DNA from: Variovorax paradoxus
Lineage (GTDB): Bacteria > Pseudomonadota > Gammaproteobacteria > Burkholderiales > Burkholderiaceae_C
Assembly (NCBI RefSeq): GCF_030815975.1
Contig: NZ_JAUSXL010000002.1
Location: 2,170,001 to 2,234,000 of the forward strand
Direction of reading: 5' to 3'
DNA: 64,000 nucleotides
This document shows, piece after piece, positions 2,527 through 35,192 of the stretch. Within the stretch, counting starts at the first letter, position 1. Every line of letters starts with the position of its first letter. A model generated the notes under the pieces. The model made no database searches. It worked only from the letters and a program-made list of their open reading frames with translations, and was not told where the DNA came from. A program made the translations under genes and the position numbers.

Positions 2527-2543
2527 CGAAGAAGCGCCGGCCG

Positions 2544-3548: not shown

Positions 3549-3681
3549 GGAAACCCTTTTTTCCACTGGTTTGGACAACTGGCCATTGTCGGGCACGGCG
3601 TTCCGGCGGCCACCGTAAAATCGAAAGCTTTTGCGACTTCCCCCCGGTCGCTCCCCACACAGCTCCCAAAGGAATCAGGAA

Positions 3682-4632: not shown

Positions 4633-4640
4633 GAAAAACC

Positions 4641-6536: not shown

Positions 6537-6590
6537 TCTAGGTGGGGCCGGCGGGCCTCAACCTGACTTCGGACCGGCCGGCCTGTTGTG

Positions 6591-7787: not shown

Positions 7788-7790
7788 CAA

Positions 7791-10216: not shown

Positions 10217-10222
10217 GGAGCC

Positions 10223-11068
10223 TCAGTCCCGGACCCGCTGCAGTTGAAGCCGCAGCGACAGGGCGGAAGACAGCGGCAGGCCGATGGGCGGTGGCGGGTC
10301 GTCTTCCAGGCGCGCCAGCGCTTCGAACAAGCCGAGCGCATGGGCCATCGGGTTGATGTGCGCCAGCGTTTTCGCGGCGTCGGAAAGCGGTACGGGCACA
10401 GTGCAATCGCCGCCGTTCTCTTCCACCGACCAATCGAGCACGGCCACGCTGCGTTCCGTGCGTTCGGCCGCAATCACCAGCGCCACGGCCAAGAGGCCCT
10501 GGCTGTCGGTCACCGAGGTCAGCGGGCCCACCGTGGGCGTGTCGTAGCCCACCAGCAGCACCGGCGACTGATCGGCCGCGCATTGCACGGCCGCTTCGAG
10601 CAGGCCGGCGGCAAAGCTGTTTTCGTAGGCCGAGACCGAGTTGCTGGCCGCCATGCAGCCGGTGCCGATGGTCCAGTAGCCCACGGCCGCGTTGTGCACC
10701 GAGTTGTGAAAGCGCGTGGGCGACAACACCGTGGGGTCGGTGGCGAGCGTGCTGCACATGTAGTCGTTGATCGAGAGATCGCCGTGCGCCGAGACGAACA
10801 CGCAGGGCACGTCCGCAGCGTTGCGGCCCGAGCCCGCCATCGACGCGGCGGCCACTTCGAGCGCCAGGGCCACCGTGTCGGGCGCGCGGCGGCGCTCGGC
10901 CGGCGCCAGCACCTGCGGCGAGGGGCGCCTGGCGGGTGGATCGGCCAGCGCGCCTTCGCCGCGGAGGGCGGCGCGGGCGGCGTCCCAGCCCGGCAGGGTG
11001 GGCGTCCAGAAGGCCGGGCCTTCGATGTAGAGAGTCGGGGGCCTGGGGGCGCTCATGCGGGTTGTCAT
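10223..11068 (-). CDS. Ketosynthase-like chain length factor
   Basis: A 281-residue protein of the beta-ketoacyl synthase-like, N-terminal type (PF13723-like). These proteins pair with a catalytic ketosynthase in aryl-polyene and related type II systems. It has FHNSVHNAAVGYWTIGTG and VLLVGYDTPTVGPL but lacks the C-terminal half with the catalytic histidines. A cysteine in GTGCMAASNS falls near the ketosynthase nucleophile position, which is unusual for a partner subunit. ATG 11068 has GAAGGAGAC upstream, an excellent ribosome site, so I prefer it to the longer start at 11116. It lies between the ketosynthase and the halogenase-like gene. Confidence 0.8.
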   Translation of the reverse strand: MTTRMSAPRPPTLYIEGPAFWTPTLPGWDAARAALRGEGALADPPARRPSPQVLAPAERRRAPDTVALALEVAAASMAGSGRNAADVPCVFVSAHGDLSINDYMCSTLATDPTVLSPTRFHNSVHNAAVGYWTIGTGCMAASNSVSAYENSFAAGLLEAAVQCAADQSPVLLVGYDTPTVGPLTSVTDSQGLLAVALVIAAERTERSVAVLDWSVEENGGDCTVPVPLSDAAKTLAHINPMAHALGLFEALARLEDDPPPPIGLPLSSALSLRLQLQRVRD

Positions 11069-11082
11069 TGGATGTCTCCTTC

Positions 11083-11141
11083 GCGAAACACCGTGGAACC
11101 GGCTTTGCCGGGCCACCGGTGTTGCCCCCGGTAGGGGGAGG
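11083..11141. repeat. Intergenic palindromic repeat (family C, copy 1)
   Basis: ACACCG-GGAACCGGCTT-GCCGGGCC-GGTGTTGCC forms a nested inverted repeat between the ketosynthase and chain-length-factor genes. A close copy occurs at 30602-30650. It lies inside an operon, so any hairpin in the message would be between coding regions and could affect relative expression. Confidence 0.6.
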
Positions 11142-11180
11142 GAGGAGCGACACGAAGTGCGCGGAGCCTGGGGGCGAGCA

Positions 11181-12374
11181 TCATTTACCGAACACCAGCG
11201 AGCAGTTGTTGCCGCCGAAGCCGAAGGAATTGGTCAGCGCGTAGCGCACCTCGCCATGCGCGGGCGCGAGCCTGATCTGCGGGCCGAAGCCCGCGTCGAG
11301 CTGGTTCGTGTTCACCGTGCCCGGCATCAGGCCGCGCTCGATCGCGAGCAGGCTGATCACCGATTCGACGATGCCCGCCGCCCCCAGCGTGTGGCCCATG
11401 AAGCCCTTGGTCGAGCTGGCATGGGTGCGCGCCGGAAAGCGCCGCGCCACCAGGGCGCCTTCGACCTCGTCGTTCTTCTGGCTCGCGGTGCCGTGCATGT
11501 TGATGTAGTCGATGGCCTCGGGCGCCAGGCCCGCGCGCGCCAGCGCCTCGTCGAGCGCGCGCTCGGCGCCCAGGCCCTCGGGGTGCGGCGTCGACATGTG
11601 GTGCGCATCGCTGGCTTCGCCGTAGCCCAAGAGCCGCAGCGGCGCGGCTGCATCGTCCTGCACGCGCTCCAGCAGCGCGAAGCCGGCGGCCTCGCCGAGG
11701 CTGATGCCCTTGCGGCCGGCATCGAAGGGCCGGCACGGCTCGCTCGACACCAGTTCGAGCGAATTGAAGCCGAACAGCACGCTGCCGCACAGCGTGTCGA
11801 CTCCGCCCACCACGGCGGCGTCGGCCAGGCCGAGGCGGATCAGCCGCTCGGCCGAGGCGAACACCTTGGCGCTCGACGAGCAGGCGGTGGAAATGGTCTC
11901 GCTCGGCCCGGTGAGCCCGAGCACCTGCTGCACGAACATGGCCAGCGAATGCGGCGTGTGCACGGCCGGGCGGCGCTGGCTGGCGGGAAAGAGGCCGCCG
12001 GCGTCGAGCTGGGTGTAGGCCAGCTCGGTCTCGCCGATGCTGGAGGTCGAGGTGCCCAGGATCAGCGCGATGCGCGAGGCGCCGTACCTGGCCCGCGCAG
12101 TCGCCACGGCTTCGGGAAAACCATCCGCATGCAGGCCCAGCCAGGCCAGCCGGTTGTTGCGGCAGTCCCACGAGGCCAGCGCCTCGGGCAGGCGGATGTC
12201 CTCGAGCCCGTCGACCCGGCCGATCCAGGTGGGCAGCGGCGCGTCGCCGAAATCGTTGGCGCGCAGGCCGCTGCGCGAATGCTCGAGCGCCTCGGCGAGC
12301 GGCTCCTTGCCGACGCCGACGGCCGACGTGGCCGTGAAGGCGCTGATCTGAAGGGGAGAAATGCGGGGCGGCAC
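11181..12374 (-). CDS. Beta-ketoacyl-ACP synthase (FabF/FabB type)
   Basis: A condensing enzyme of about 397 residues with the full catalytic set: nucleophile Cys in STACSSSAKVF, first His in NMHGTASQKNDE and second His in STKGFMGHTLGAAG, with C-terminal NSFGFGGNNCSLVF. It should extend an ACP-bound chain. GTG 12374 is chosen because family similarity begins there (ISPLQISAFTATSAVG); no ATG fits. It heads the minus-strand operon with the chain-length-factor and halogenase-like genes. No acyl carrier protein, reductase or dehydratase lies beside it, so it must borrow those functions or depend on another locus. Confidence 0.88.
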   Translation of the reverse strand: MPPRISPLQISAFTATSAVGVGKEPLAEALEHSRSGLRANDFGDAPLPTWIGRVDGLEDIRLPEALASWDCRNNRLAWLGLHADGFPEAVATARARYGASRIALILGTSTSSIGETELAYTQLDAGGLFPASQRRPAVHTPHSLAMFVQQVLGLTGPSETISTACSSSAKVFASAERLIRLGLADAAVVGGVDTLCGSVLFGFNSLELVSSEPCRPFDAGRKGISLGEAAGFALLERVQDDAAAPLRLLGYGEASDAHHMSTPHPEGLGAERALDEALARAGLAPEAIDYINMHGTASQKNDEVEGALVARRFPARTHASSTKGFMGHTLGAAGIVESVISLLAIERGLMPGTVNTNQLDAGFGPQIRLAPAHGEVRYALTNSFGFGGNNCSLVFGK

Positions 12375-14974: not shown

Positions 14975-14991
14975 TTGGCACATTGCTTGCA
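14975..14991 (+). promoter_or_regulatory. Sigma-54 (-24/-12) promoter for atzF
   Basis: TTGGCACATTGCTTGCA matches the RpoN consensus YTGGCAC-N5-TTGCW, with GG (14977-14978) and GC (14989-14990) exactly 10 bases apart. Predicted transcription start is near 15002, and the atzF ATG is at 15025. Sigma-54 control fits a nitrogen-scavenging gene set. No clear NtrC-type enhancer was identified upstream. Confidence 0.8.
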
Positions 14992-14996
14992 TCTCG

Positions 14997-15010
14997 ACTT
15001 GTACACAAGT
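14997..15010. promoter_or_regulatory. Candidate GntR operator over the atzF start of transcription
   Basis: ACTTGT-AC-ACAAGT is an inverted repeat with perfect 6-bp arms around 2 bases, in the style of GntR/FadR-family operators. It covers the transcription start predicted from the sigma-54 site, so a bound protein would block initiation. The likely ligand-responsive regulator is the GntR protein encoded at the end of the same cluster (27584-28354). Confidence 0.6.
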
Positions 15011-15024
15011 TTGGATGCTTGATC

Positions 15025-16731
15025 ATGGTGCATGAAGAAAACGGATCGGCCGCGGCGGCGTGGATCGCGCGCTTCGCGCAGCCGGTGCCCGGTGCGGGCA
15101 CCGGCCCCCTTGCGGGCCTGCGCTTTGCCGTCAAGGACAACATCGACGTGGCCGGCGTGCCCACCACCGCCGCCTGCCCGGCCTTCGATCGCCGGCCGCA
15201 AGAGCACTCGGCCGTGGTGCGGAAGCTGCTCGATGCCGGTGCATCGCTGCTGGGAAAGACCAACCTCGACCAGTTCGCCTGCGGCCTGAACGGCACGCGC
15301 TCGCCGTATGGCGAGGTGCCCAATGCCTTCGACGCGCGCTATGTCTCGGGCGGCTCCAGCTCCGGGTCGGCCTATGTGGTGGCCGCGGGCGAGGTCGATT
15401 TCGCGCTCGGCACCGACACCGCCGGCTCGGGCCGCGTGCCCGCAGGGCTCAACAACATCGTCGGGCTCAAGCCCTCGCGCGGCCTGCTGAGCGCCTTTGG
15501 CGTGGTGCCCGCCGCGCAGAGCGCGGATTGCGTGTCGATCTTCGCGCGCACTGTTGGCCTGGCCGTCGACGTGCTTCTTGCGGCCGCCGGGCCCGACGCG
15601 CGCGATCCCTATTCACGCGAACTGGCGCTGCGCAGCGATCCGTTTCCATCGGCCTTCCGCTTCGGCGTGCCCGACACGCTGAGCTTCTTCGGCGATGCCG
15701 CGGCCGAAGACGCCTTTCGCGATGCGCAGGTGCGGCTGGCGGAGTTCGGCGGCACGGCCGTGGCGATTCCGTTTGCGCCGCTGGCCGAGGCCGCCGCGCT
15801 GCTGTATGAAAGCGCGCTCGTGGCCGAGCGCTATGCGGCGGTGCGCGGGTTCTTCGATGCGCACGGCTCCCAGGTGATCGAGCCGGTGCGCGGCATCCTC
15901 GAAAGCGGCCGCGGCTACGACGCCGCCGACGTGTTCGAGGCGCAGACCCGTCTGCGCGCGCTCGCGCAACGCATCGAGCCGATGTGGCGCGGCATCGACG
16001 TGCTGCTGGTGCCGACCGCGCCCACGCACTACACGCGCGAACAGATGCGCGCCGACCCCGTGGTGCGCAACCGCAACCTCGGCGCGTACACCAACTTCGT
16101 CAACCTGCTCGACTATGCCGCGATCTCGGTGCCGAGCTCCCTGCGCGCCGACGGCCTGCCCTTCGGCATCACGCTGATCGGCCCGTGCGGCAGCGATCTG
16201 GCGCTGGCCGAACTGGGCCAGCGCTATCACCACGCCACCGGACTGCCACAGGGCGCCACAGGCTTGCCGCTGCCCGAGCCGCGCGCCATTCCGGGCCTGG
16301 CCGCCTCGCCAGCGCAGACCATGCCCATCGCCGTCGTCGGCGCGCATCTCTCGGGCATGCCGCTCAACGGCCAGCTCACCGAACGCGGCGCCACGCTGCT
16401 GCGCGCCACCACCACCGCGCCGCGCTACCGCCTGCATGCCCTGCCGGGCACCGTGCCGCCCAAGCCGGGGCTGCAGCGCAGCGCGATCGGCGGCGCAGCC
16501 ATCGCGCTCGAAGTGTGGTCCGTTCCCGTCGCGCAGGTCGGCAGCTTCCTGGCCCTGATCCCGCCGCCGCTGGGTCTGGGCAGCGTCGAGCTCGCCGACG
16601 GCAGCTGGGTGCACGGCTTCATCTGCGAAGGCCATGCGCTCGCCGACGCCGAAGACGTGAGCCACCACGGCGGCTGGCGCGCCTACATCGCGAGCCGCGC
16701 CGCAGCTTCTTCCCGAGCCATTCCAACCTGA
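15025..16731 (+). CDS. atzF: Allophanate hydrolase
   Basis: This enzyme converts allophanate to ammonia and CO2, the last step of biuret, cyanuric acid and ATP-dependent urea breakdown. The 568 residues include an amidase-signature domain: Lys in FAVKDNIDVAG (about residue 38), the Ser-rich SGGSSSGSAYVVA and nucleophile Ser in GTDTAGSGRVPAG. A C-terminal domain typical of AtzF/DUR1,2-type enzymes follows. ATG 15025 follows GGATG and suits the predicted promoter; a longer in-frame start at 14983 would lie within the promoter. It is the first gene of the 13-kb nitrogen cluster. Confidence 0.93.
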   Translation: MVHEENGSAAAAWIARFAQPVPGAGTGPLAGLRFAVKDNIDVAGVPTTAACPAFDRRPQEHSAVVRKLLDAGASLLGKTNLDQFACGLNGTRSPYGEVPNAFDARYVSGGSSSGSAYVVAAGEVDFALGTDTAGSGRVPAGLNNIVGLKPSRGLLSAFGVVPAAQSADCVSIFARTVGLAVDVLLAAAGPDARDPYSRELALRSDPFPSAFRFGVPDTLSFFGDAAAEDAFRDAQVRLAEFGGTAVAIPFAPLAEAAALLYESALVAERYAAVRGFFDAHGSQVIEPVRGILESGRGYDAADVFEAQTRLRALAQRIEPMWRGIDVLLVPTAPTHYTREQMRADPVVRNRNLGAYTNFVNLLDYAAISVPSSLRADGLPFGITLIGPCGSDLALAELGQRYHHATGLPQGATGLPLPEPRAIPGLAASPAQTMPIAVVGAHLSGMPLNGQLTERGATLLRATTTAPRYRLHALPGTVPPKPGLQRSAIGGAAIALEVWSVPVAQVGSFLALIPPPLGLGSVELADGSWVHGFICEGHALADAEDVSHHGGWRAYIASRAAASSRAIPT

Positions 16732-16748
16732 CCGATCGAGGAGTCCTC

Positions 16749-17759
16749 ATGCGCATCCCTGAGAAACCGCCCGCCGCCTCCGCCGCGTCGCGCCGCCAGC
16801 TGCTGCAGGCCGGCGCCGCGGGGCTGGCCGTGCTGGCCGCGCCCGCCATCGTGCGCGCGCAGGCCGCGCCCAAGATCCGCATCGGCTTCTGGCCCGTGGC
16901 GGCGGGCCTGCCCTTCTTTGCCGCGGTCGACCGCGGCTACTTCAAGGAAGCGGGCCTCGACGTGGAGCCGCTCACGTTCGCGGGCGCGCAGCAGGTCATG
17001 GAAGGCATGCTCGCGGGCCGCTGCGACGGCAGCGCCAACGGCACGGGCTCGGCCAACCTTGCCATCGGCGAGATCGCGCAGCCGGGGCTCTTCAAGATCT
17101 TCTGCACCAACCCGAGCAACGCCAAGTTCGTGCTCGACGAATTCATCGTCGCCAAGGACAGCCCGATCAAGGCCATGGCCGAGCTGGCCGGCAAGAAGAT
17201 CGCGTCCGGCCCCGGCATCCAGAACGTGACCCTGTGCAAGACCATGCTCGAACGCGCGGGCGCCAAGGGCGCCACCGTGAGCGAGCTTCCCATCGGCCAG
17301 CATGTGGCCGCGCTCGTCGCGGGGCAGGTCGACGCCTGCTACACGCTCGAGCCCACCGGCACCGTGGGCCGCATGAACGGCACCACGCGCGTCATCGAGG
17401 CTGGCGTGGTCGCCAGGTACATCCTCGGCGATCCGATGGCGCCCTGGCACGGCGGCGCGGCCAGCCTCACCAGCGAGTTCATCAAGAAGAACCCCGAGGT
17501 GGCGAAGAAGTACATCGCCGCCTATGCGCGCGGCGTGGAGCTGGTGCGCAGCAAGCCCGACGACGCGCGCCAGCACATGAAGGGCTACACCGCCATCGAA
17601 GGCAGCCTCACGGCCGAAGTGCCGCTCGCCTCGTACACGCTCTACAACGAATTCAAGCCGAGCGACGTCGCGTACTTCCAGAAGTTCTACGACCTGTTCA
17701 CCGAGAAAGGCATCTTCGAGAAGAAGGTACCGGTGGACGGCCTGCTCTACAAGGCATGA
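16749..17759 (+). CDS. ABC transporter substrate-binding protein (NMT1/TauA type)
   Basis: A 336-residue periplasmic binding protein of the NMT1/TauA/SsuA class. It has an N-terminal signal containing twin Arg (ASRRQLLQAGAAGLAVLAAP), which could be Tat-exported. IRIGFWPVAAGLPFFAAVDRGYFKEAGLDVE is the typical start of the mature protein. GAGGAGTCCTC precedes ATG 16749. The stop overlaps the permease start. Relatives bind taurine, sulfonates, nitrate, pyrimidine precursors or ureide-like compounds. The neighbours atzF and the HpxZ-like gene point to a small amide or ureide. Confidence 0.88.
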   Translation: MRIPEKPPAASAASRRQLLQAGAAGLAVLAAPAIVRAQAAPKIRIGFWPVAAGLPFFAAVDRGYFKEAGLDVEPLTFAGAQQVMEGMLAGRCDGSANGTGSANLAIGEIAQPGLFKIFCTNPSNAKFVLDEFIVAKDSPIKAMAELAGKKIASGPGIQNVTLCKTMLERAGAKGATVSELPIGQHVAALVAGQVDACYTLEPTGTVGRMNGTTRVIEAGVVARYILGDPMAPWHGGAASLTSEFIKKNPEVAKKYIAAYARGVELVRSKPDDARQHMKGYTAIEGSLTAEVPLASYTLYNEFKPSDVAYFQKFYDLFTEKGIFEKKVPVDGLLYKA

Positions 17760-18592
17760 CCATGGCCGACGCAAGCACGAGCACGGCCGCGCCGTGGACA
17801 CCGCCCGCCGCCGGCGCGACGGCGGCGGCACCGAAACCGCCGCTGCGCGACCGCCTGCTGCCCTTCATCGGCCCGGTGGCACTGTTCATCGTGTGGGACC
17901 TGGCGGTGCGCCTGGGCTTCATCAAGCCGATCCTCCTGCCCACGCCGGCCGACACCATTGCGGCGCTGATCCCGGGGCTCGCGGGCGGGCCGCTGCTCAC
18001 CGACTTTGCGATGACGGTGTGGCGCACGCTGCAGGCCTTCGCGATTGCGGCGGTGGTCGGCGTGCCGCTGGGCGTGCTGCTCGGCAGCAACGAGCGTGCT
18101 TATCGCAGCGTCGAGTTCCTGATCGACTTCTTCCGCTCCACGCCGTCGTCCGCGCTGATTCCGCTGTTCCTGCTGATCTTCGGCGTGTCGGACGTCAACA
18201 AGGTGGCCATCGCGGCTTTCGGCGCGCTGCTGATCGTGGTGTTCAACAGCGCCTACGGCGTGATCAATGCGCGCAAGCAGCGCGTGATGGCGGCGCGCGT
18301 CATGGGCGCCTCGCGCTGGCAGATCTTCAAGGACGTGCTGGTGTGGGAAAGCCTGCAGCCCAGCTTCGTGGGCCTGCGCTCGGCCGTGTCGATGGCGCTG
18401 GTGATCGTCATCGTGGCCGAGATGTTCATCGGCTCCGACACCGGCCTGGGGCACCGCATCATCGATGCGCAGCAGGTGCTCAACGTCAAGAGCATGTACG
18501 CGGCCATTCTTGCGGCGGGCGCACTGGGCTATGCGCTCAACATTCTCTTTCTCGTCGCCGAGCGCCGCATCGTGCACTGGAGCGGAAGATGA
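17756..18592 (+). CDS. ABC transporter permease (SsuC/TauC type)
   Basis: Inner-membrane permease of the importer encoded by 16749-19422, with about six membrane segments after a Pro/Ala-rich N-terminus. The ABC-contact (EAA) loop reads [30 protein letters not shown], and [15 protein letters not shown] follows as in taurine/sulfonate permeases. I start it at ATG 17756, overlapping the binding-protein stop (ATGA); ATG 17762 is in frame two codons later. The stop overlaps the ATPase gene. Confidence 0.88.
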
Positions 18593-19422
18593 AAGCCACG
18601 CAAGACATCGTCGTCAACGGCCCGGTGTATGCCGACGTGCCCAGGCCCGTCTTCAAGCCCGGCCCGGCCGGCACGCACATCACCATCCGAGGGCTCACCA
18701 AGTACTTCGCGGGCTGGCCGCTGTACGAGAACTTCGACCTCGACATTCCCAAGCACCGGATCGTCTCGGTATTCGGGCCCAACGGCTGCGGCAAGTCCAC
18801 GCTCATCAACATGATCGCGGGGCTCGTTCCCATCGATGCGGGCGAGATCCTGTTCGACGGGAAGCAGCGCAAGGACACCAAGATCGGCTACGTGTTCCAG
18901 AACTACCGCGAGGCGATGTTCCCGTGGATGCGCACCATCGACAACATCGCCTATCCGCTCAAGCTCGAAGGGCGCAGCAAGGCCGAGGTCGACCGGCGCA
19001 TGGAAGAACTCGTCGCATCCTTCGACGTGAAGTTCGACTTGAAGCGCTTTCCGTACGAGCTCTCGGGCGGCCAGCAGCAGACCGCATCGATCATGCGTGC
19101 GCTCGCGCCCAAGCCCGAGGTGCTGTTTCTCGACGAACCCTTTTCGGCGCTCGATTTCGAGATGACGCTCTTCATCCGCGAGAAGCTGCAGGAGGTGTTC
19201 ATGCAGACGGGCACCACCATGCTGCTGGTGTCGCACGACCTCGAAGAGGCCGTGTACCTGGCCGACGAGGTGCTGCTGCTGACCAAGCGGCCCACCAGGG
19301 TGGCCGAGATCCTGCGCTACGGCGATGCGCGGCCACGCACGGTCGAGACGCTCAGCACCGACAGCTTCGTGGCAACCAAGAAGCTCAGCCTCGACATCTT
19401 CCAGCGCGAGGTGCGCAGATGA
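18589..19422 (+). CDS. ABC transporter ATP-binding protein (SsuB/TauB type)
   Basis: Cytoplasmic ATPase of 277 residues for the NMT1-type importer. Walker A is [10 protein letters not shown], the signature [15 protein letters not shown] and Walker [14 protein letters not shown], with the switch His in [17 protein letters not shown]. It overlaps both neighbours by 4 bases, so the three transport genes and the following HpxZ-like gene should be translationally coupled. Confidence 0.9.
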
Positions 19423-19799
19423 CGCTGGAGATCAACATTCCCGAGGTGCTCGCCGAAGTGACGGCCGTGTTCGCACGCTACGAAGAAGCGCTCATGGCCA
19501 ACCAGCCCGCAGTGCTCGACGAACTGTTCTGGAACAGCCCGCTGACGCTGCGCTACGGTTTCTCGGAGAACCACTACGGCCATGCCGGCATCCGCGCCTT
19601 TCGCGCATCGCTGCCGGTGCAGAGCCCGCCGCGCGAGCTGCTGCGCACCGTCATCACCACCTACGGCCGCGACTTCGCGACCGCCAACGTCGAGTTCCGC
19701 CGCGAAGGCAGCGGCCAGACCGGCCGGCAGAGCCAGACCTGGCTGCGCACGGCCGAGGGCTGGCGCGTGGTTGCCGCCCACGTGAGCCTGCTGGGCTGA
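19419..19799 (+). CDS. hpxZ: HpxZ/AtzH-like SnoaL-fold protein
   Basis: A 126-residue DUF3225-type protein of the SnoaL/NTF2-like fold. [31 protein letters not shown] and [15 protein letters not shown] match HpxZ of oxalurate catabolism. AtzH of the cyanuric-acid pathway, also found near atzF, belongs to the same family and handles a carboxylated urea intermediate. The companions HpxW/HpxY-type amidases and AtzE/AtzG are absent here, so its substrate is open. Position beside an importer and atzF suggests it processes an unstable carboxylated ureide upstream of allophanate. Confidence 0.82.
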
Positions 19800-19804
19800 G
19801 CGCG

Positions 19805-19820
19805 GGGCACATTTTTTGCA
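19805..19820 (+). promoter_or_regulatory. Second sigma-54 promoter, before the BMP binding-protein gene
   Basis: GGGCACATTTTTTGCA has GG (19806-19807) and GC (19818-19819) exactly 10 bases apart and keeps the GGCAC and TTGCA blocks. The predicted start of transcription is near 19831 and the next ATG is 19848. It falls in the only sizeable gap (48 bases) of the first half of the cluster. It would give the second importer and the hydrolases their own RpoN-dependent transcript. Confidence 0.7.
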
Positions 19821-19847
19821 CTCCCTTCAACCTCTGGAAAGAACGCC

Positions 19848-20966
19848 ATGACAAGCCCAATCAATCGCCGCGATTCCCTCAAGTCCCTGGCCGCGCTCGG
19901 CGCCGCCGGCACCCTCGGAGGCTGGAGCGCGCTCGCCGGCGCACAGGCCAAGCCGCTGACCGTCGGCGTGATCTACGTCGGCGCGCGCGACGACTATGGC
20001 TACAACCAGGCGCACGCCATGGCCGCGGCCGAGGTCAAGAAGCTGCCCGGCATCAAGGTGGTCGAAGAAGAGAACGTGCCCGAGACCGCCGCCGTGCAGA
20101 AGACCATGGCCGGCATGATCTCGCAGGACGGCGCCAAGCTCCTGTTCCCCACCTCGTTCGGCTATTTCGATCCGCACATCCTGGCTGTCGCGCCGAAGTA
20201 CCCCGACGTTCGCTTCTCGCACTGCGGCGGCCTCTGGACCGAAGGCAAGCACCCGAAGAACGCCGGCAGCTTCTTCGGCTACATCGACGAGTGCCAGTTC
20301 CTGAACGGCGTGATCGCGGCGCACATGACCAAGAGCAACAAGATCGCCTTCGTCGCCGCCAAGCCGATTCCGCAGGTGCTGCGCAACATCAACGCTTTCA
20401 CGCTGGGTGCGCGCTCGGTCAAGCCGAACATCACCTGCAGCGTGATCTTCACCGGCGACTGGTCGATGGCCGTGAAGGAAGCCGAAGCCACCAACAGCCT
20501 GGCCGACCAGGGCTGCGATGTCTTCACCATGCACGTCGACGGCCCCAAGGTGGTGGTGGAGACCGCGGCCAAGCGCGGCAAGATGGTCTGCGGCTACCAC
20601 GCGAGCCAGGCCAAGCTCGCGCCCAACGCGTACCTCACCGGTGCCGAATGGAACTGGCTCACGGCCTACAAGACCGCCATCGAGGCCGCGCAGACCGGCA
20701 AGCCGCATCCCAACTTCCTGCGCGGCGGTTTGAAGGAAGGCTACGTGAAGATGTCGGCCTATGGCCCGATGGTGCCGGACGCCGCGAAGAAGCAGGCCGA
20801 CGACATCAAGGCGAAGATGATCGCGGGCACCTTCGACATCTTCAAGGACGGCATCAAGGACAACAAGGGCGCGGTCGTGGTGCCGGCCGGCAAGGTCTTG
20901 AAGCAGACCGACCTGGAACTCGAAAAGATGAACTACCTGGTCGAAGGCGTCGTCGGTTCGGCCTGA
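19848..20966 (+). CDS. BMP-family ABC transporter substrate-binding protein
   Basis: A 372-residue basic-membrane-protein-type binding protein, the class used by nucleoside and purine-like importers. The signal region includes SLKSLAALGAAGTLGGWSALAGAQA. The mature start KPLTVGVIYVGARDDYGYNQAHA and VFTMHVDGPKVVVETAAKRGK are typical of the family. GGAAAGAAC precedes ATG 19848. Two BMP-type permeases follow directly; the ATPase of the system is encoded 4 kb downstream. Likely cargo is a polar amide such as biuret, triuret or formamide-related compounds, inferred from context. Confidence 0.88.
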   Translation: MTSPINRRDSLKSLAALGAAGTLGGWSALAGAQAKPLTVGVIYVGARDDYGYNQAHAMAAAEVKKLPGIKVVEEENVPETAAVQKTMAGMISQDGAKLLFPTSFGYFDPHILAVAPKYPDVRFSHCGGLWTEGKHPKNAGSFFGYIDECQFLNGVIAAHMTKSNKIAFVAAKPIPQVLRNINAFTLGARSVKPNITCSVIFTGDWSMAVKEAEATNSLADQGCDVFTMHVDGPKVVVETAAKRGKMVCGYHASQAKLAPNAYLTGAEWNWLTAYKTAIEAAQTGKPHPNFLRGGLKEGYVKMSAYGPMVPDAAKKQADDIKAKMIAGTFDIFKDGIKDNKGAVVVPAGKVLKQTDLELEKMNYLVEGVVGSA

Positions 20967-20977
20967 GTTTCAAGCCC

Positions 20978-22039
20978 ATGCGTCACGCGCTCAAGGAATT
21001 CGCCCTGCCGACGTTCGCCATCGCGGCGGCGCTGCTGCTGTTCGGGCTGCTCGTGGCCTTTGCCGGCGTCGATCCGGTGGAGGTCTGGGCGACGCTCTTC
21101 AAGGGTGCGTTCGGCGACTGGTTCTCGTGGCAGAACACCCTGCAGCGCGCCGCGCCGCTGATGCTCACCGCACTGTGCGTGGCGCTGCCCGCGCGGGCGG
21201 GGCTGATCGTCATCGGCGGAGAAGGCGCGCTGGTGCTCGGTGGCCTGGCCTCTGCCGCGCTCGCGCATGCGGTGCCGCTGCCCGGCAACATGCTGGGCAC
21301 AGTGGTGGTCTGCCTCGCAGGCGCGGCGGCCGGTGCGCTGTGGATCATGCTTGCGGGCTGGCTGCGCCAGTACCGCGGCATCAACGAAACCATCAGCAGC
21401 CTGCTGCTGGCCTACATCGCCATCGGCATCTTCAAGCACCTGGTCGAGGGGCCGCTGCGCGATCCGGCGAGCCTCAACAAACCATCGACCCATGCGCTCG
21501 CCGACGGGCTGCTGATCGGCGGCATCGGCGGTTCGGACGTGCACTGGGGCTTCGTGATCGGCGTGGTCGCCTGCCTGGCGCTCGGGTGGTGGCTGCGCGC
21601 CACGGCCTCGGGCTTTTCGGTGCGCGTGGTGGGCGGCAATCCGCGCACCGCGCAGCTCGTGGGACTGCCGGCCACGCGGCTCATCCTCGGGGCCTGCGGG
21701 CTCGGCGGCGCCTGCGCGGGGCTCGCGGGCGCCGTCGAGGTGGCGGCGGTGCACACCAATGCCAATGCCTCGCTGATCGCGGGCTACGGCTATGCGGGCA
21801 TCCTGGTGTCGTTCATCGCGCGCCACAACCCGGTGGCCATCGTGCCGGTGGCGATTCTTTTTGGCGGCTTCGGCGCGGCCGGCAGCCTGCTGCAGCGCAG
21901 GCTCGGGCTGCCCGATGCTTCGGTGCTGGTGCTGCAGGGCATTGCCTTCGTGCTGATCCTTGCGAGCGAGGGGTTGCGCATGGTCGACTGGAACGCCCTG
22001 CGCGCGCGCGTTCCGCGCGGCGCGGGGGCGGTGCGATGA
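20978..22039 (+). CDS. BMP-type ABC transporter permease 1
   Basis: A 353-residue membrane permease (YufP/NupP-like) of the branched-chain/ribose-type superfamily, with about 8-10 hydrophobic segments. Typical segments are RAPLML-like TLQRAAPLMLTALCVALPARAGL, IGGEGALVLGGLASAA, LRQYRGINETISSLLLAYIAI and GYGYAGILVSFIARHNP. The stop overlaps the second permease gene by four bases. Together they should form the channel for the binding protein encoded at 19848. Confidence 0.88.
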   Translation: MRHALKEFALPTFAIAAALLLFGLLVAFAGVDPVEVWATLFKGAFGDWFSWQNTLQRAAPLMLTALCVALPARAGLIVIGGEGALVLGGLASAALAHAVPLPGNMLGTVVVCLAGAAAGALWIMLAGWLRQYRGINETISSLLLAYIAIGIFKHLVEGPLRDPASLNKPSTHALADGLLIGGIGGSDVHWGFVIGVVACLALGWWLRATASGFSVRVVGGNPRTAQLVGLPATRLILGACGLGGACAGLAGAVEVAAVHTNANASLIAGYGYAGILVSFIARHNPVAIVPVAILFGGFGAAGSLLQRRLGLPDASVLVLQGIAFVLILASEGLRMVDWNALRARVPRGAGAVR

Positions 22040-22959
22040 CCGCGGACCAGTGGATTGCGCTCGCGGCCGGCATCGTCGGCGGTGCGCTGCGCGTGGGCGC
22101 GCCCTTCCTGTTCGTGAGCCTCGGCGAATGCCTCACCGAGAAATCGGGCCGCATCAACCTCGGGCTCGAAGGCGTGCTGGTGCTCTCGGCCATGGCGGCC
22201 TTCGGCGGTGCCTATCTCACCGATTCGGCGTGGCTCGGCGTGCTGATCGGCGCGATGGCGGGGGCGGCGCTCGCGCTGCTGCATGGCCTCCTGTGCTCGC
22301 TCGATCGCGTGAACGACGTCGCGACCGGCATCGCGCTGATGCTGCTCGGCACGGGGCTCGCGTTCTATCTTGGCAAGCCGCTGATCCAGCCGCAGGCGCC
22401 GCAGATTCCTGCGATACCGCTGGGCTTCTGGAGCGACAACACGGTGGTGCGCTCGGCATTGCAACTCAATGCGCTGGTGCCGATCGGCGTGGCGCTGGCG
22501 GTGCTGCTCTGGTGGGGCTTTGCGCGCACGCGGGCCGGCCTGCTGGTGCGCATGGCCGGCGACTCGGCGCAGGCCACGCGCGCGCTCGGCTATTCGGTCT
22601 CGGGCCTGCGCATCGCAGCCACCACGGCGGGCGGCTTCATCGCCGGGCTCGGCGGTGCATCGCTCACGCTGTTCTATCCGGGCAGCTGGAACGAAGGCAT
22701 CTCGAGCGGCCAGGGCCTGATCGCGGTGGCGCTCGTGATCTTCGCGCGCTGGAGCCCGCTGCGCTGCGTGGGTGCGGCGCTGCTCTTCGGCGGGGCGGGC
22801 GCCATCGGACCGGCGCTGCAATCCATCGGCATCGGCTGGGGCTATCACCTGTTCAACACCGTGCCCTACGTGCTCACGCTGGTGATTCTGGTGTTGACCT
22901 GCAGGCCCGGCACGGCAGCCGCCGGCGCCCCGGGCGAACTTTCATCGACAAGGAGCTGA
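22036..22959 (+). CDS. BMP-type ABC transporter permease 2
   Basis: A 307-residue second permease (YufQ/NupQ-like). [25 protein letters not shown] and [19 protein letters not shown] are characteristic of this family. ATG 22036 overlaps the stop of permease 1 (ATGA). The formamidase gene starts 5 bases after its stop, with AAGGAG just upstream inside the permease end. Confidence 0.88.
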
Positions 22960-22964
22960 ATCCC

Positions 22965-23966
22965 ATGAGCGGTCTCGGAGGCCTCAACAAATCGGCCCAC
23001 GGCGTCGTCGTCGGCCTGGTGCAGCTGCAGCTGCCGAGCGTGAAGACGCCGGCCGACCTGGCCGCGCAGACGCAGCGCATCTGCGAGATGGTGGGCAAGG
23101 CACGCCGCAACCAGTCGACCATGGATCTCGTGGTGTTTCCCGAGTACGCGCTGCACGGCCTCTCGATGGACATGAACCCCGAAATCATGTGCACGCTCGA
23201 CGGGCCCGAGGTGGCCGCCTTCAAGAGCGCCTGCATCGCGCACCGCATCTGGGGCTGCTTCTCGATCATGGAAGCCAACCCCGACGGCAATCCGTACAAC
23301 AGCGGGCTCATCATCGACGACCAGGGCGCCATCAGGCTCTACTACCGCAAGCTGCATCCGTGGGTGCCGGTCGAGCCGTGGGAGCCCGGCAACCTCGGCA
23401 TCCCGGTGTGCGACGGGCCGAACGGCAGCAGGCTCTCGCTCATCATCTGCCACGACGGCATGTTCCCCGAGATGGCGCGCGAGGCCGCCTACAAGGGCGC
23501 CGACATCATCCTGCGCACGGCGGGCTACACGGCGCCGATCCGCCATGCATGGAAGATCACCAACCAGGCCAACGCCTTCTGCAACCTGGCCTACACCGCG
23601 AGCGTGTGCCTCAGCGGCAGCGACGGCAGCTTCGACTCGATGGGCGAGGGCATGTTCTGCAATTTCGACGGCACGGTGCTGGCCGAGGGCGGCGGCCGCG
23701 CCGACGAGATCATCACCGCCGAGCTGCGGCCCGACCTCGTGCGCGAGGCGCGCACCGGCTGGGGCGTGGAGAACAACATCTACCAGCTCTACCACCGCGG
23801 CTACGTGGCGGTGAAGGGCGGCGCCCAGGACTGCCCCTACACCTACATGCACGACATGGCCGCCGGCATCTACAGCCTGCCCTGGAGCGCCGAGGTGAAG
23901 GTGACCGACGGCACCTCCTGCGGCTTTGCAGCGCCGGAGCGCACCTACGAAGGAAACAAGCGATGA
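22965..23966 (+). CDS. amiF: Formamidase (AmiF-like, nitrilase superfamily)
   Basis: A 333-residue nitrilase-fold amidase that hydrolyses formamide to formate and ammonia. It aligns closely with Helicobacter AmiF: the FPEY glutamate is residue 60, [15 protein letters not shown] holds the catalytic Lys, and IICHDGM the nucleophile Cys. [14 protein letters not shown] and [16 protein letters not shown] are also shared. An aliphatic amidase with broader range is the alternative. It is encoded between the BMP permeases and biuH with overlapping stop/start, so it belongs to the same nitrogen-scavenging transcript. Confidence 0.9.
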
Positions 23967-24664
23967 ACGACACGACACCTTCCCGCCACGTGGCCGCCGA
24001 GCCCTATGCCTGGCCCTACAACGGCGACCTGCGGCCCGGCAATACCGCGTTCATCGTGATCGACATGCAGACCGACTTCTGCGGCAAGGGCGGCTACGTC
24101 GACGTGATGGGCTACGACCTCTCGCTGGTGCAGGCGCCGATCCAGCCGATCGCGCGCACGCTCGCGGCGCTGCGGCCGCTGGGCTTTCACATCATCCACA
24201 CGCGCGAAGGCCACCGGCCGGACCTGGCCGACCTGCCCGCCAACAAGCGCTGGCGCTCGCGCCAGATCGGCGCCAACGGCGTGGGCATCGGCGACGACGG
24301 GCCGTGCGGGCGCATCCTGGTGCGCGGCGAGCCGGGCTGGGAGATCATTCCCGAACTCGCGCCGCTGCCCGGCGAGGTGGTGATCGACAAGCCCGGCAAG
24401 GGCTCGTTCTATGCCACCGACCTGGAGCTGATCCTGCGCACGCGCGGCATCGAGAATCTGGTGCTCGCGGGCATCACCACCGACGTGTGCGTGCACACCA
24501 CGATGCGCGACGCGAATGACCGCGGCTTCGAATGCCTGCTGCTGTCGGACTGCACGGCCGCCACCGACCACGGCAACCATCTGGCGGCTCTCAAGATGAT
24601 CACGATGCAGGGCGGCGTGTTCGGCGCGCATGCAATGTCGCAGGCCTTGCTGGCGGCCCTATGA
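23963..24664 (+). CDS. biuH: Biuret amidohydrolase (isochorismatase-like)
   Basis: This cysteine hydrolase turns biuret into allophanate and ammonia. The 233 residues carry the Asp-Lys-Cys triad: Asp34 in VIDMQTDF, Lys143 in IDKPGKGSF and Cys176 in [17 protein letters not shown]. The N-terminal [15 protein letters not shown] and the segment [19 protein letters not shown] are as remembered from rhizobial BiuH, where the triad is Asp36/Lys142/Cys175. It overlaps the formamidase gene by four bases. Its product allophanate is the substrate of AtzF, encoded at the head of the cluster. Confidence 0.9.
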
Positions 24665-24693
24665 GAACGCCACGGGTCGCGCCATGTGCATGG

Positions 24694-24721
24694 AGCAGCT
24701 GAATGAATTCCTGCTTTTTTT
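24694..24721 (+). terminator. Weak terminator-like hairpin after biuH
   Basis: AGCAG at 24694-24698 can pair with CTGCT at 24711-24715, followed by a run of T. The stem is only 5 bp with a 12-base loop, so efficiency is doubtful. If it works it would lower transcription of the downstream ATPase, triuret-hydrolase-like and gntR genes. Confidence 0.3.
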
Positions 24722-24817
24722 GTTTGTCCCGTTGTGAGTCATTCAGGGCGCGCTCCCGCCGACGGGAGCGTTATTCGGAGCGGTCGTTGATCGAGCGACA
24801 CAACGGCAGCGCCCATC

Positions 24818-24913
24818 GTGCACAGGGCATCGGGTGCTCCCCGCAGCGAAATCAAGGAGGAGGCCGCAGGCCGGGGGACATTCGCGGAGGGGAGTACCCG
24901 GTGGCCTGTGCAC
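24818..24913. repeat. Long palindromic intergenic repeat (family B, copy 1)
   Basis: The unit starts and ends with GTGCAC and is an imperfect palindrome of about 96 bases: GCACAGG-CA-CGGGTGCTCCCC on the left mirrors GGGGAGTACCCGGTGGCCTGTGC on the right. The centre contains GAGGCCGCAGGCC. The same unit occurs inverted at 53658-53751 and again, shortened, at 53813-53905. The similarity extends left to about 24770. It fills most of the 24665-24976 gap, where no gene is seen. Confidence 0.78.
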
Positions 24914-24976
24914 GCGCCCTGAACAACAGCAACAGCGCCCCGGACAAGAGCAGCCGAACGCGCGGTGAAAACTGAT

Positions 24977-26584
24977 ATGACCACCGCATTGCCTCACGCC
25001 ATTGGCGCGCTCCCCGCAGGCAGCGGCGCGCTCGCGCTCGACACCTATGAGTTGACCAAGCGCTTCGGCGCCTTCACCGCGATGGACCGCGTGACGATGC
25101 GCGTCGAGCCCGGCACGGTGCATGCGTTGCTGGGCGAGAACGGCGCGGGCAAGAGCACGCTGGTGAAATGCGTGGCCGGTTTCCAGCGTGCGGAAGAGGG
25201 CAGCATCCTGATCGACGGGCGCGAGCAGGACATTGCCAACCCGATCGTGGCGCGTGCGCTGGGCATCGGCATGGTTTACCAGCATTTCACGCTGGCACCG
25301 GGCATGACGGTGGCCGAGAACCTGCTGCTCGCGGGCGGCAAGACGCCCGCGCTGATCGACTGGAAGGGCAAGCGCGCGGAGCTCAAGGATTTTCTTGCGA
25401 CCACGCCCTTCAGCCTCGATCTCGACGTGCGGCCATCCGAACTGGCGGCGGGCGAGAAACAGAAGCTCGAACTGCTCAAGCAGCTCTACCTGAAGCCGCG
25501 CCTGCTGATTCTCGACGAACCGACCTCGGTGCTCACGCCGCAGGAGGCCGACGAGGTGCTGGGTCATGTGCGCGAGTTCGCGCGAAGCGGCATGTGCACC
25601 GTGCTCATCATCACGCACAAGTTTCGCGAGGTGATGGCCTATGCCGACAGCGTGACGGTGCTGCGCCGCGGCAAGGCGGTGCACCACTGCCGCGTGGCGG
25701 ACACGAGCCCGGCGCAGCTGGCGCAGGCCATGATGGGCGGCGAGGGCGTTTCAGCGTCTGCGCCGGCTTCCTCGCCCATCGCCAGAGCACCGGTGCCCGA
25801 TGCGGCACCCGTCGCCTTGCGGGTCGAAGGCCTCGAGGCGCAGGGGGACCGCGGCACGCTGGCGCTGCACGGGCTGGGCCTGTCGGTGCGCGCCGGCGAG
25901 ATCCTCGGCGTGGCGGGCGTTTCGGGCAACGGGCAGCGCGAACTGGTCGAGGCCCTGGTCGGGCAGCGTCCGCGGCTGGCCGGCAAGGTGAGCGTGATGG
26001 GCCGGCCCTACAGCGCGCGCCGCGCAGAGAACCGCAGCCTCAAGGTCCGCAGCCTGCCCGAGGAGCCGCTGCGCAATGCCTGCGTGGGCGACCTCAGCGT
26101 GGCGGAGAACATGGCGCTGCGCGATTTCGACCGGCCGCCGCTGTCGCGCGGCGGCGTGCTGAACTTTCCGTTCTGGCGCCAGCGGGCGCGCGAATGGATT
26201 GCCGAATACGGCGTGAAGACGCAGGGCGAGGGCGCGCCGATCCGCAGCCTCTCGGGCGGCAATGTGCAGCGTGCGGTGCTGGCGCGAGAGCTGGCCGGCG
26301 ACATCAACGTGCTGATCGCGGCGAACCCCGTGTTCGGCCTGGACTTCGCGGCCGTGGCCGAGATCCACGAGCGCATCGTGCAGGTGCGCGAGAAGGGCGG
26401 GGCGGTGCTGCTGATCAGCGAGGACCTCGACGAGCTGCTGGAGCTTGCGGACCGCATCGTCGTGATGAGCGAAGGGCGGATCGTGTTCGAGACGTCGGCT
26501 GCGGGGGCCGAAAGGCATGTGATCGGGGCGCACATGGGTGGGGGACACCATGGCGAGCCGCCGCCGCTGAAGGCCTCGGCATGA
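24977..26584 (+). CDS. BMP-type ABC transporter ATP-binding protein (double ATPase)
   Basis: A 535-residue protein with two ABC domains, as in YufO/NupO and ribose-type ATPases. The first domain has Walker [11 protein letters not shown] near residue 52, [15 protein letters not shown] and [14 protein letters not shown]. The second has the usual degenerate site [14 protein letters not shown], then [17 protein letters not shown]. It supplies energy to the binding protein and permeases encoded at 19848-22959, from which it is separated by two hydrolase genes and a palindromic repeat. The start is either ATG 24977 or GTG 24965; neither has a clear ribosome site. Confidence 0.86.
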
Positions 26585-26623
26585 GTGCCCTGCCGGCTGT
26601 TGCTGGGCTGCCCGGTGCGCGGT

Positions 26624-26885
26624 GCGGCGCGGTCGCCCCCACTGTGCCGGCCGCTGCGCGGCTCCCCTGCGGTGCTCGCGTTTCGCGGGGTCTCGCAGAA
26701 CTCGCTTCGCTCAAACAGCTGCGAGCCCTGATCCGCGAAACGCTGCGCTCCTCGGCGGCACAGAGGGGGCGCCCACACCGCACCGCACACCGGGCTTCGA
26801 GGTGGAGTGTTCGCAGTCGATGCGTCCGCGGCGATGGGCGGTGTGTTCCCGGTCGGCCGGCCGGGGACACACCGCTCATCGCCGC
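26624..26885. repeat. Two large intergenic hairpins (family D)
   Basis: The first (26624-26792) has imperfect arms of about 32 bases, GGTGCGCGGTGCGG... mirrored by ...CCGCACCGCACACC, enclosing a second inverted pair (GCGTTTCGCGG/CCGCGAAACGC). The second (26829-26885) pairs CGGCGATGGGCGGTGTGTTC with its near complement ending ATCGCCG. The DNA translates in all frames without family resemblance, although GAACTCGCTTCGCTCAAACA is a motif I recognise from Comamonadaceae intergenic repeats. It fills the 26585-26915 gap between the ATPase and the triuret-hydrolase-like gene. Confidence 0.68.
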
Positions 26886-26915
26886 ACCCCCGCCCTGAAC
26901 AACAGCGAGACAAGA

Positions 26916-27587
26916 ATGCGAATAGAGGCCGCCCCCTTCCCCTACGAATTCGAGGTCAGGAACACAGCACTGGTCCTCATCGACATGCAGCGCGACTTCA
27001 TCGAGCCCGGCGGCTTCGGCGAAACGCTGGGCAACGATGTGTCCTTGCTCGAAGCCATCGTGCCCGCAACCCGGGCAGCCCTGGAGGCGTGGCGACGGGC
27101 CGGCGGCCTCGTGGTCCACACCCGGGAAGCGCACAAGGCGGACCTCTCCGACTGCCCGCCCGCCAAACGCAACCGCGGCAACCCGAGCCTGCGCATTGGC
27201 GACGAAGGACCGATGGGCCGCATCCTCGTCGCAGGCGAACCGGGCAGCCAGATCATCGATGCGCTGGCGCCCGTGGAAGGCGAAATCGTCATCGACAAGC
27301 CCGGCAAGGGCGCGTTCTATGCCACCGGGCTGCACGAACTGCTGCAGCAGCGCGGCATCACGCACCTGCTGTTCGGCGGCGTCACCACCGAGGTCTGCGT
27401 GCAGACCAGCATGCGCGAGGCCAACGACCGGGGCTACGACAGCCTGCTGCTCGAAGACTGCACCGAGAGCTACTTCCCGGCCTTCAAGGCGGCCACGCTC
27501 GACATGGTCCGCGCACAGGGCGCGATCGTCGGCTGGACCGCGCCGAGCGCCGCGCTGCTGGCGGTGCTTCGCCAACAGGGGCAATGA
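26916..27587 (+). CDS. trtA: Triuret hydrolase-like cysteine hydrolase
   Basis: A 223-residue isochorismatase-like hydrolase and a paralogue of the nearby biuret hydrolase. It has Asp23 in LIDMQRDF, Lys128 in IDKPGKGAF and Cys161 in [17 protein letters not shown]. The family resemblance and the partnership with biuH fit TrtA, which hydrolyses triuret to a carboxybiuret that decays to biuret. A ureidoacrylate or other ureide hydrolase cannot be ruled out. CAGCGAGACAAGA precedes ATG 26916; the gntR start overlaps its stop. If correct, the cluster covers triuret to ammonia completely. Confidence 0.72.
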
Positions 27588-28354
27588 CAGCGACTAACAT
27601 TCCGCACGTGTCTACCGTTCGCTCCCGCTCCGCTTCGCCCGCGCCCACGCCCGCTTCCGACAAGGCCGTTTTCCGCACGCGCGCCGACGAGGTCTACGCG
27701 CAGCTCAAGCGCGACGTGGCCGATTTCATCCTCGTGCCCGGCGACCGCTTCACCGAAAACGAGATCAGCGAACGGCTCGGCGTTTCGCGCACGCCCGTGC
27801 GGCAGGCGCTGTTCCGCCTTCAGCAGGAGGGCTTCGTCGAGGTGCTGTTCCGCAGCGGCTGGCGCGTGCTGCCGTTCGACTTCGACCAGTTCGAGCAGCT
27901 TTATGACCTGCGCATGGTGCTCGAGACCACTGCCGTGCACCGCCTCTGCGAGGCCGGCCGCCGCGTCGACCGCAGCCTGCTCGACACGCTGGCCGACATC
28001 TGGCTCGTGCCCGCGGCGCAGCGCAGCAGCGACACCGCGCAGGTGGCGCAGTGGGACGAGGCCTTTCACTGCGCGCTCGTGGCGGCCGCGGGCAACGCCG
28101 AGATGGCGCGCGTGCACAGCGACGTGACCGAGCGCATCCGCATCATCCGCCGGCTCGACTTCACGCAGCAGCCGCGCATCGACGCCACCTACGAGGAGCA
28201 CGGCAAGATTCTCAAGGCCGTGCGCGCCAACCGCGGCGACCAGGCCGCGATGCTGCTGCGCGCGCACATCGAGACCAGCCAGGCCGAGGTGCGCAAGATC
28301 ACGCTGCACCAGGTGCACCTGGCGCGGCATGCGGGCAAGGCCGCGCCGCGCTGA
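27584..28354 (+). CDS. GntR-family regulator (FadR/FCD type)
   Basis: A 256-residue regulator with an N-terminal winged helix ([51 protein letters not shown], about residues 37-87). A C-terminal all-helical FCD-type ligand domain follows, with the metal-binding histidines expected in the family ([25 protein letters not shown]). It closes the nitrogen cluster by four-base overlap with the triuret-hydrolase-like gene. The ACTTGT-AC-ACAAGT site at 14997-15010 is a plausible target. Confidence 0.88.

Positions 28355-30652: not shown

Positions 30653-35192
<4,540 letters not shown>

Follow-up and report, generated by a model that had tools for sequence, protein, structure and literature searches.

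The triuret/biuret operon of Variovorax paradoxus: a gene cluster of known kind without atzG-atzE and with an AtzH-like protein that lacks Arg66

Triuret and biuret are fertiliser by-products, and triuret comes onto farmland as an impurity in urea applied as fertiliser (PMC7948467). Operons in which the genes for triuret hydrolase (trtA), biuret hydrolase (biuH) and allophanate hydrolase (atzF) occur together have been described (PMC7948467). Here we consider such a cluster in the soil bacterium Variovorax paradoxus, analysed within a stretch of 64 kb ("the window"; contig NZ_JAUSXL010000002.1 of assembly GCF_030815975.1, or G000:C2:2170001-2234000 in our numbering of this 6.09-Mb genome), where reading frames and family scans delimit 13 genes on the + strand across 15025-28354 (Table 1). 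Several described systems resemble it in part. The triuret clusters of ammonia-oxidizing bacteria (PMC12625717) share with it atzF, biuH, trtA, trtB (for which the window has a candidate) and a BMP-type importer, bmpA-nupABC, and gntR is among the genes of their synteny figure; the text searched in that source has no NMT1-type importer and no formamidase, whereas the window has both. The atzF-ABC-atzG-atzE-atzH clusters of Comamonadaceae and other Burkholderiales (Esquirol et al., PMC6219798; our locus L015 is of this type) share with it the order atzF, ABC importer, atzH, further ABC importer and amidases, and differ from it in having atzG-atzE; in the main text of that paper BiuH appears only as an assay enzyme and in a reference, triuret appears nowhere, and biuH and trtA are not named in those clusters. 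The atzDGEHF cyanuric acid operon of Pseudomonas strain ADP (PMC6219798, PMC6834077) has in common with the window AtzF, AtzH, an AtzT-like importer and sigma-54 promoters. The window cluster lacks the ring-opening AtzD and AtzEG, with TrtA predicted to make carboxybiuret instead, and by this gene content, atzD and atzGE both being absent from the cluster, it is not a cyanuric acid operon.

Four Herbaspirillum loci (L071, L081, L084 and L085) are like the window in carrying atzF, the NMT1 and BMP importers, biuH, trtA, an atzH-like gene and gntR on one strand. The TrtA of L071 (H. frisingense) appears by eye nearly identical, with few differences, to the crystallised TrtA of strain BH-1, for which other Herbaspirillum strains stand in here. 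In these loci atzH lies 3' of trtA and encodes Cys66, and no formamidase was found, whereas in the window atzH lies behind the NMT1 importer and encodes Leu66, and a formamidase gene is present. The first-pass annotation of this DNA had taken the assembly of two uptake systems with the enzymes to be new. That part does not stand, since the Herbaspirillum loci hold both importers and both trtA-biuH-atzF operons (PMC7948467) and a BMP-type cluster (PMC12625717) are published; its chemistry is borne out well by the sequences, and it overlooked the absence of atzG-atzE, the change in the pocket of AtzH and the promoter with its sigma-54 box and operator. The locus is a real triuret/biuret operon of an already known kind, and what merits study is the slot that can hold either atzGEH or atzH, the position-66 signature and the sigma-54/GntR promoter, rather than the pairing of importers.

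Taking gene content, residues and conservation together, we consider it quite likely that the locus serves as a nitrogen-scavenging operon that would work as follows. Under nitrogen limitation, RNA polymerase with sigma-54 would start transcription from the box at 14976-14991 unless GntR occupied the palindrome at 14998-15009, from which a ureide or pathway intermediate may release it. Triuret, biuret or their kin would be imported by one or both ABC systems, and TrtA is predicted to convert triuret to carboxybiuret and ammonia. The AtzH-like protein may then take carboxybiuret to biuret, replacing the branch of relatives in which AtzEG makes dicarboxyurea for AtzH, after which BiuH would yield allophanate and AtzF would yield ammonia and CO2. 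Formamidase would be an accessory, conceivably for formamide from N-formyl ureides.

The enzymes at the two ends of this route are the best documented. The TrtA, BiuH and RutB classes were assigned from scores and residues, an enzyme of the TrtA class being one whose activity on biuret is lower than that on triuret by a factor of about 10^4. The trtA product of the window aligns over 216 residues with the crystallised Herbaspirillum TrtA (6XIX; 69% identity) and is 49% identical to BiuH (6AZO); the biuH product shows 75% identity with BiuH and 49% with TrtA, and the two paralogues are 49% identical to each other. Alignment confirmed the Asp-Lys-Cys triad that had been pointed out in both isochorismatase-like proteins (Asp24-Lys129-Cys162 in TrtA), with Q202 kept in each, and the trtA product also has the TrtA substrate residues F29, E72 and K132. 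Carried beyond the triad, the comparison places each protein with its namesake at 14/14 tested positions. Six residues, F35, N41, A134, E160, Y187 and I205 in TrtA against Y, Y, S, D, T and V in BiuH, separate the two enzymes (PMC7948467); all six are TrtA-type in the one protein and all six BiuH-type in the other. On the BiuH profile NF050097 the trtA product reaches 253 bits, below the cut-off that the biuH product passes, and on the RutB profile TIGR03614 (cut-off 378 bits) the two score 98.7 and 115.9 bits. The residues and the score of 98.7 bits rule out trtA as rutB or as a plain isochorismatase gene. The allophanate hydrolase combines an amidase domain, an AH_C domain and a TIGR02713 score above the cut-off. 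The sequence comparisons, with RutB far weaker, thus support well the proposed sequence from triuret through carboxybiuret, biuret and allophanate to ammonia, and the cluster very probably turns triuret and biuret into ammonia. All the genes first named are present at the positions given for them, on the + strand, and family scans together with a gene order that recurs in many genomes rule out chance or mis-annotation as the source of the cluster.

The feature that sets the window apart from many of its relatives is a pair of missing genes. Relatives were collected by using the NMT1 binding protein as query (of the 154 loci found, the best 80 are named), and in many of them about 1.6-2.1 kb (3.9 kb in L077) separates the importer ATPase gene from the next gene, corresponding to a small gene and an amidase gene, which in L015 encode AtzG (PF13318) and AtzE (NF006631, 672 bits, cut-off 461). 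Scored by gap length in 71 loci (75 rows less four without a scored state), the atzG-atzE pair is present in 46 and absent from 25, among them the window; close Variovorax relatives lack it as well. An AtzE-like amidase was confirmed in 46/46 of the former; in the latter the only matches are three that fall within atzF itself. The window's own genome yielded no AtzE that scores above the curated cut-off, and AtzEG is absent from the cluster as well; the best AtzE match of that genome (window 32184-33602, - strand) is GatA. With no atzG-atzE in between, atzH of the window directly follows the NMT1 ATPase gene. On a tree of the importer, built by a quick method, the atzGE state changes nine times, at least six of them forced by well-supported branches, and near sisters such as L015 (with the pair) and L025 (without it) differ.

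The gene that remains in the slot encodes a protein of the AtzH family (PF11533), whose best match in the PDB is the AtzH of strain ADP; the protein has 66% identity to a solved structure. The ADP enzyme is thought to decarboxylate the 1,3-dicarboxyurea made by AtzEG; Tyr22 and Arg46 matter for this, and the docked pocket includes Arg63, Arg66, Arg73 and Arg96 (PMC6219798). The window protein has the catalytic Tyr22 and Arg46, and across 102 AtzH sequences Tyr22, Arg46, Arg63 and Arg73 are invariant. Arg66 occurs in 60/60 sequences encoded beside atzGE, in 14/14 from other contexts and in 0/28 from trtA/biuH-type clusters without atzGE, which have Leu (16), Cys (11) or Thr (1), and position 66 is the only alignment column that separates the groups fully. 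Leu66 is uniform in the Variovorax group (16/16), and the Cys66 group has lost Arg96 too (Asp 7, Ser 3, Gly 1). Arg66 is kept where a TrtA-like gene and atzGE occur in one cluster, for example in L015, L108, L144 and L173 (whose TrtA-like match is only 56%). As to the labels, an AtzE-like amidase is encoded within 5 kb in 59/59 "atzGE" loci, the 60th row being the ADP structure; 25/28 rows without atzGE have no AtzE-like match, the other three (L019, L020 and L021) matching only in atzF itself; and one row of the other contexts, L180, gave a match to an amidase fragment and could be a member of the atzGE group. Dropped before the count were L088 (short, and the same as L144, which is counted), L099 (short, with Arg66 and an amidase match in view) and L139 (a weak PF11533 match with neither Arg66 nor Arg46), along with the duplicates L107 and L151 (of L145), L113 (of L146), L121 (of L147), L135 and L178 (of L108), L136 and L157 (of L143) and L142 (of the window); L140 and L141 gave no AtzH alignment.

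The decay of carboxybiuret is slow, its half-life being about 20 min, and trtB, which codes for a decarboxylase, is found together with trtA (PMC7948467). Because carboxybiuret has one carboxylate and dicarboxyurea two, the loss of Arg66, and of one positive charge with it, fits a change of substrate to carboxybiuret, and we infer from the sequences that AtzH without Arg66 may have switched from the one compound to the other and so may perform the "TrtB" step; that the TrtB of the literature is an AtzH-like protein is our guess. It appears that a small enzyme in the middle of the cluster changed its target when two adjacent genes were lost. More broadly, and only tentatively, since we rate it somewhat below an even chance, the slot between the NMT1 and BMP importers may be an exchangeable cassette for two carboxybiuret routes, either atzG-atzE-atzH with Arg66 (deamination, then decarboxylation of dicarboxyurea) or atzH without Arg66 alone (straight to biuret), the loss of Arg66 being a specificity switch that arose repeatedly where bacteria combine AtzH with TrtA.

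A number of observations weigh against this proposal. No atzH match is in view in 9/46 loci with atzGE (L038, L041, L057, L061, L063, L065, L066, L067 and L068), so AtzH is not indispensable to AtzEG. trtA is in view in 25/28 of the rows without atzGE and not in L020 (a contig end), L074 (biuH only) or L150 (BMP ATPase and formamidase only). The best Arg66 tree needs three changes, a tree in which the sequences without Arg66 form one clade is not rejected (approximately unbiased test, p 0.464), and the rows are related, with too few pairs for a test on independent pairs; a single origin of the loss is not excluded and the independence of the losses is not proved. Arg66 does not track atzGE strictly, for the second AtzH of the window's own genome (L143) has retained it although no atzGE lies near. 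The Arg66Ala and Arg66Lys variants of the ADP enzyme are not among the five listed as impaired (PMC6219798), and Arg66 is therefore not essential for the older AtzH role. This last point, together with the ADP enzyme being the best PDB match, would also suit a protein that still acts on 1,3-dicarboxyurea, or on another ureido acid as HpxZ does in oxalurate metabolism, supplied from elsewhere in the genome. We think this unlikely, given that the genome has no AtzE above the cut-off and that, among the 102 sequences, Arg66 is lost only in trtA/biuH-type contexts without atzGE.

The rate of change at atzH bears on another explanation, namely that the gene is a relic, left without a task by the loss of atzGE and decaying, while carboxybiuret loses its carboxyl group by itself and BiuH finishes the work. 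The median pairwise ratio of nonsynonymous to synonymous substitution (dN/dS) of atzH is 0.239 (40 pairs) without atzGE against 0.118 (15 pairs) in copies coupled to it, with 0.199 for atzF; this twofold difference also fits relaxed constraint and must be counted against a change of function. Spontaneous decarboxylation of carboxybiuret is known (PMC7948467), and comammox clusters without trtB are reported (PMC12625717). Against decay, atzH has no stop codons in 16/16 copies of the Variovorax group without atzGE, window included; the catalytic residues are kept in 28/28 rows and position 66 is uniformly Leu in the Variovorax group; and atzH adjoins trtA in the absence of atzGE in Herbaspirillum, Pseudomonas and others, and lies one gene further off in Ideonella. 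The window gene is not visibly decaying, and we regard the relic explanation as improbable. Two further observations concern the AtzH family and its neighbours. The second AtzH gene of the genome (L143, G000:C2:1387000-1406500, 4482-11800) lies behind another NMT1 importer, near a gene resembling ring-opening amidohydrolases (AtzD/barbiturase type) and an FAD-monooxygenase-like gene, both recognised by eye. A ChrR-like cupin is encoded after trtA, where others have AtzH, in L004 (12659-13012, PF12973), and likewise 3' of trtA in L109, L110, L111, L112, L114, L115 and L116; it is possibly an unrelated carboxybiuret decarboxylase.

Upstream of atzF, the window contains its sole exact sigma-54 match (three matches at ≤1 mismatch against 1.47 expected) and an inverted repeat, CTTGTACACAAG, that is its sole match at ≤1 mismatch (0.64 expected). 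Because such evidence from the window alone is weak, the case for promoter and operator rests on conservation, assessed with slightly looser motif forms in the 73 loci with enough sequence upstream of atzF and compared with random stretches. TGGCAC-N5-TTGC (≤1 mismatch) occurs there in 67/73 loci against 2/73 random stretches, and CTTGT-N3-CAAG (≤1 mismatch) in 70/73 against 5/73; the two are exactly 22 bp apart in 52/73 loci, and nine of the 73 have no such pair. The repeat covers the expected transcription start and is therefore taken as a probable repressor site, for which the GntR protein of the cluster is the natural candidate. Since the atz operons of strain ADP are sigma-54 dependent (PMC6834077), the sigma-54 box suggests that the operon is under nitrogen-starvation control combined with repression by GntR. 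A point on the other side is that no NtrC-like pair of sites was found near the atzF promoter, the window having three matches against 4.5 expected. The second sigma-54-like site, 5' of the BMP module, is found at ≤1 mismatch in 24/63 loci against 2/63 random stretches, and in L032 and L049 the repeat also precedes the BMP module. Directly 5' of nmtS, trtA and gntR, promoter motifs showed no clear excess over random stretches.

The proteins of the NMT1 importer are nearest to those of Variovorax beijingensis and V. paradoxus, with a highest identity of 97%. In Cupriavidus pauculus this importer is accompanied by atzF and gntR but has no trtA or biuH near it, and in Bordetella ansorpii only gntR accompanies it; a genome from each species (L075 and L079) yielded no TrtA-like match at E ≤ 1e-50. 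The substrate of the importer therefore need not be triuret, and one might suppose that the main substrate of the system is some other ureide or a product of purine breakdown, and that triuret and biuret enter it only as minor compounds. The AtzT-like BMP binding protein is in keeping with this, AtzT being reported to bind guanine and 2-hydroxyatrazine (PMC6834077), as are the molybdopterin-binding, (2Fe-2S) and XdhC-family (xanthine-dehydrogenase-like) genes that lie about 5 kb beyond the Ideonella cluster on the opposite strand. The fully kept specificity residues of TrtA, an enzyme reported to be ultraspecific (PMC7948467), speak against it, and we hold it to be rather doubtful. A match at E ≤ 1e-50 to the window TrtA is present in 43 of the 49 genomes searched (those of 50 of the 80 NMT1 loci, L013 left out), with a best copy of at least 68% identity in 42 and of 56% in one. 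Formamidase is an optional member: of 61 loci in which bmpP2 and biuH are both in view, 35 have it. Several NMT1 loci (L028, L029, L030, L034, L055 and other short contigs among L006-L085) stop at a contig edge within or just after the importer, and counts of cluster content are accordingly lower bounds.

The features of the locus are collected in Table 1. Ten of the 13 proteins were put through profile scans, the BMP binding protein being named by its PDB match and the two BMP permeases by annotated orthologues. The description of the cluster as compact is apt for the packing of its genes, with stop and start codons overlapping at nmtS/nmtP, nmtP/nmtA, nmtA/atzH, bmpP1/bmpP2, fmd/biuH and trtA/gntR, and less so for two unexplained gaps, of 312 bp (24665-24976, 5' of the BMP ATPase gene) and 331 bp (26585-26915, 5' of trtA). 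Both gaps are non-coding, and near their 3' ends they have CGCCCTGAACAACAGC in common.

Table 1. Features of the triuret/biuret operon in the window, with the basis for each assignment
Feature	Position	Strand	Basis
Sigma-54 (-24/-12) promoter TGGCAC-N5-TTGCA, predicted	14976..14991	+	motif and conservation
Inverted repeat CTTGT-AC-ACAAG, probable GntR operator over predicted transcription start	14998..15009	+	motif and conservation; GntR binding presumed
atzF, allophanate hydrolase	15025..16731	+	amidase and AH_C domains; TIGR02713 739 bits, cut-off 511
nmtS, NMT1-type periplasmic binding protein	16749..17759	+	family scans; adjoins atzF in most relatives
nmtP, NMT1-importer permease	17756..18592	+	family scans
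nmtA, NMT1-importer ATPase	18589..19422	+	family scans
atzH/hpxZ-like gene with Leu66 (AtzH numbering), probable carboxybiuret decarboxylase in the TrtB role	19419..19799	+	NF033625 193 bits, cut-off 135
Second sigma-54-like site, 5' of BMP module	19805..19820	+	one mismatch
BMP-type binding protein, AtzT-like	19848..20966	+	best PDB match 6PI5 "atrazine periplasmic binding protein", 205 bits
bmpP1, BMP-importer permease 1	20978..22039	+	reading frame; orthologues annotated ABC permease
bmpP2, BMP-importer permease 2	22036..22959	+	reading frame; orthologues annotated ABC permease
fmd, formamidase	22965..23966	+	NF009803 567 bits, cut-off 406
biuH, biuret hydrolase	23963..24664	+	NF050097 418 bits, cut-off 370
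BMP-importer ATPase, double ABC cassette	24977..26584	+	family scans; alternative GTG start at 24965
trtA, triuret hydrolase	26916..27587	+	69% identity to 6XIX; all 14 tested positions as in TrtA
gntR, GntR-family (FCD) regulator	27584..28354	+	family scans

Wider sampling gave TrtA-like matches of at least 60% identity in 53 of 200 genomes from the family (54 pass E ≤ 1e-60, the remaining one, G041, at 52% identity, possibly having BiuH instead), and in a sample of the phylum 35 of 398 genomes pass E ≤ 1e-75 with TrtA, at 56-100% identity. Plasmid loci of Ideonella, Enterobacter, Rhizobium and Pseudomonas share a core of BMP importer, biuH, ATPase and trtA, three of the four with formamidase. 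The triuret/biuret cluster of the 61-kb Enterobacter cloacae plasmid pENT-784 (L003, 623-11976) lies between transposase genes, and many plasmids of clinical and wastewater Klebsiella, Enterobacter and Citrobacter carry copies with the same TrtA identity of 64%. In L120 (genome G397, 1501-3647) a TrtA-like protein (61%) is closely followed by an AtzE-like amidase (58%), a pairing unlike that of the Burkholderiales clusters.

A further locus of the same genome may serve a related compound. L106 (G000:C2:3597000-3613000, 904-9730) contains a LysR-like gene (by eye), an NMT1 importer and both "urea amidolyase associated" proteins (TIGR03424/03425), known as the subunits of carboxyguanidine deiminase. 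It also encodes the alpha subunit of a nitrile hydratase (TIGR01323), next to what look like the beta subunit and accessory proteins, as well as an AtzF-like amidase and a third isochorismatase-like hydrolase, in which TrtA positions 132 and 202 are Thr and Glu. Judged by these genes, it is possibly an island for the route from dicyandiamide through guanylurea, carboxyguanidine and allophanate to ammonia. The importer, nitrile hydratase and hydrolase recur together on one Klebsiella and one Stutzerimonas plasmid, and only two other genomes among the 398 of the phylum have a match to the hydrolase at E ≤ 1e-70, at 50%. The guanylurea hydrolases known so far are described as supplying guanidine carboxylase (PMC9800807), and in the open-access literature we found nothing that links dicyandiamide or cyanoguanidine with nitrile hydratase in such a route.

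Nor did we find, among the open-access papers listed, a publication on the position-66 signature or the atzF promoter, which is a weak test of absence; should it already have been published that TrtB is an AtzH-like protein, the signature and the exchange at the slot would still stand. The promoter provides a model, open to testing, for how cells turn on the use of triuret. If our reading of AtzH is true, a single residue would mark the fate of carboxybiuret in a genome, a role would be given to genes that are annotated only as "HpxZ", and the slot would provide a small, clean case of an enzyme that changed its substrate after the loss of its partners.

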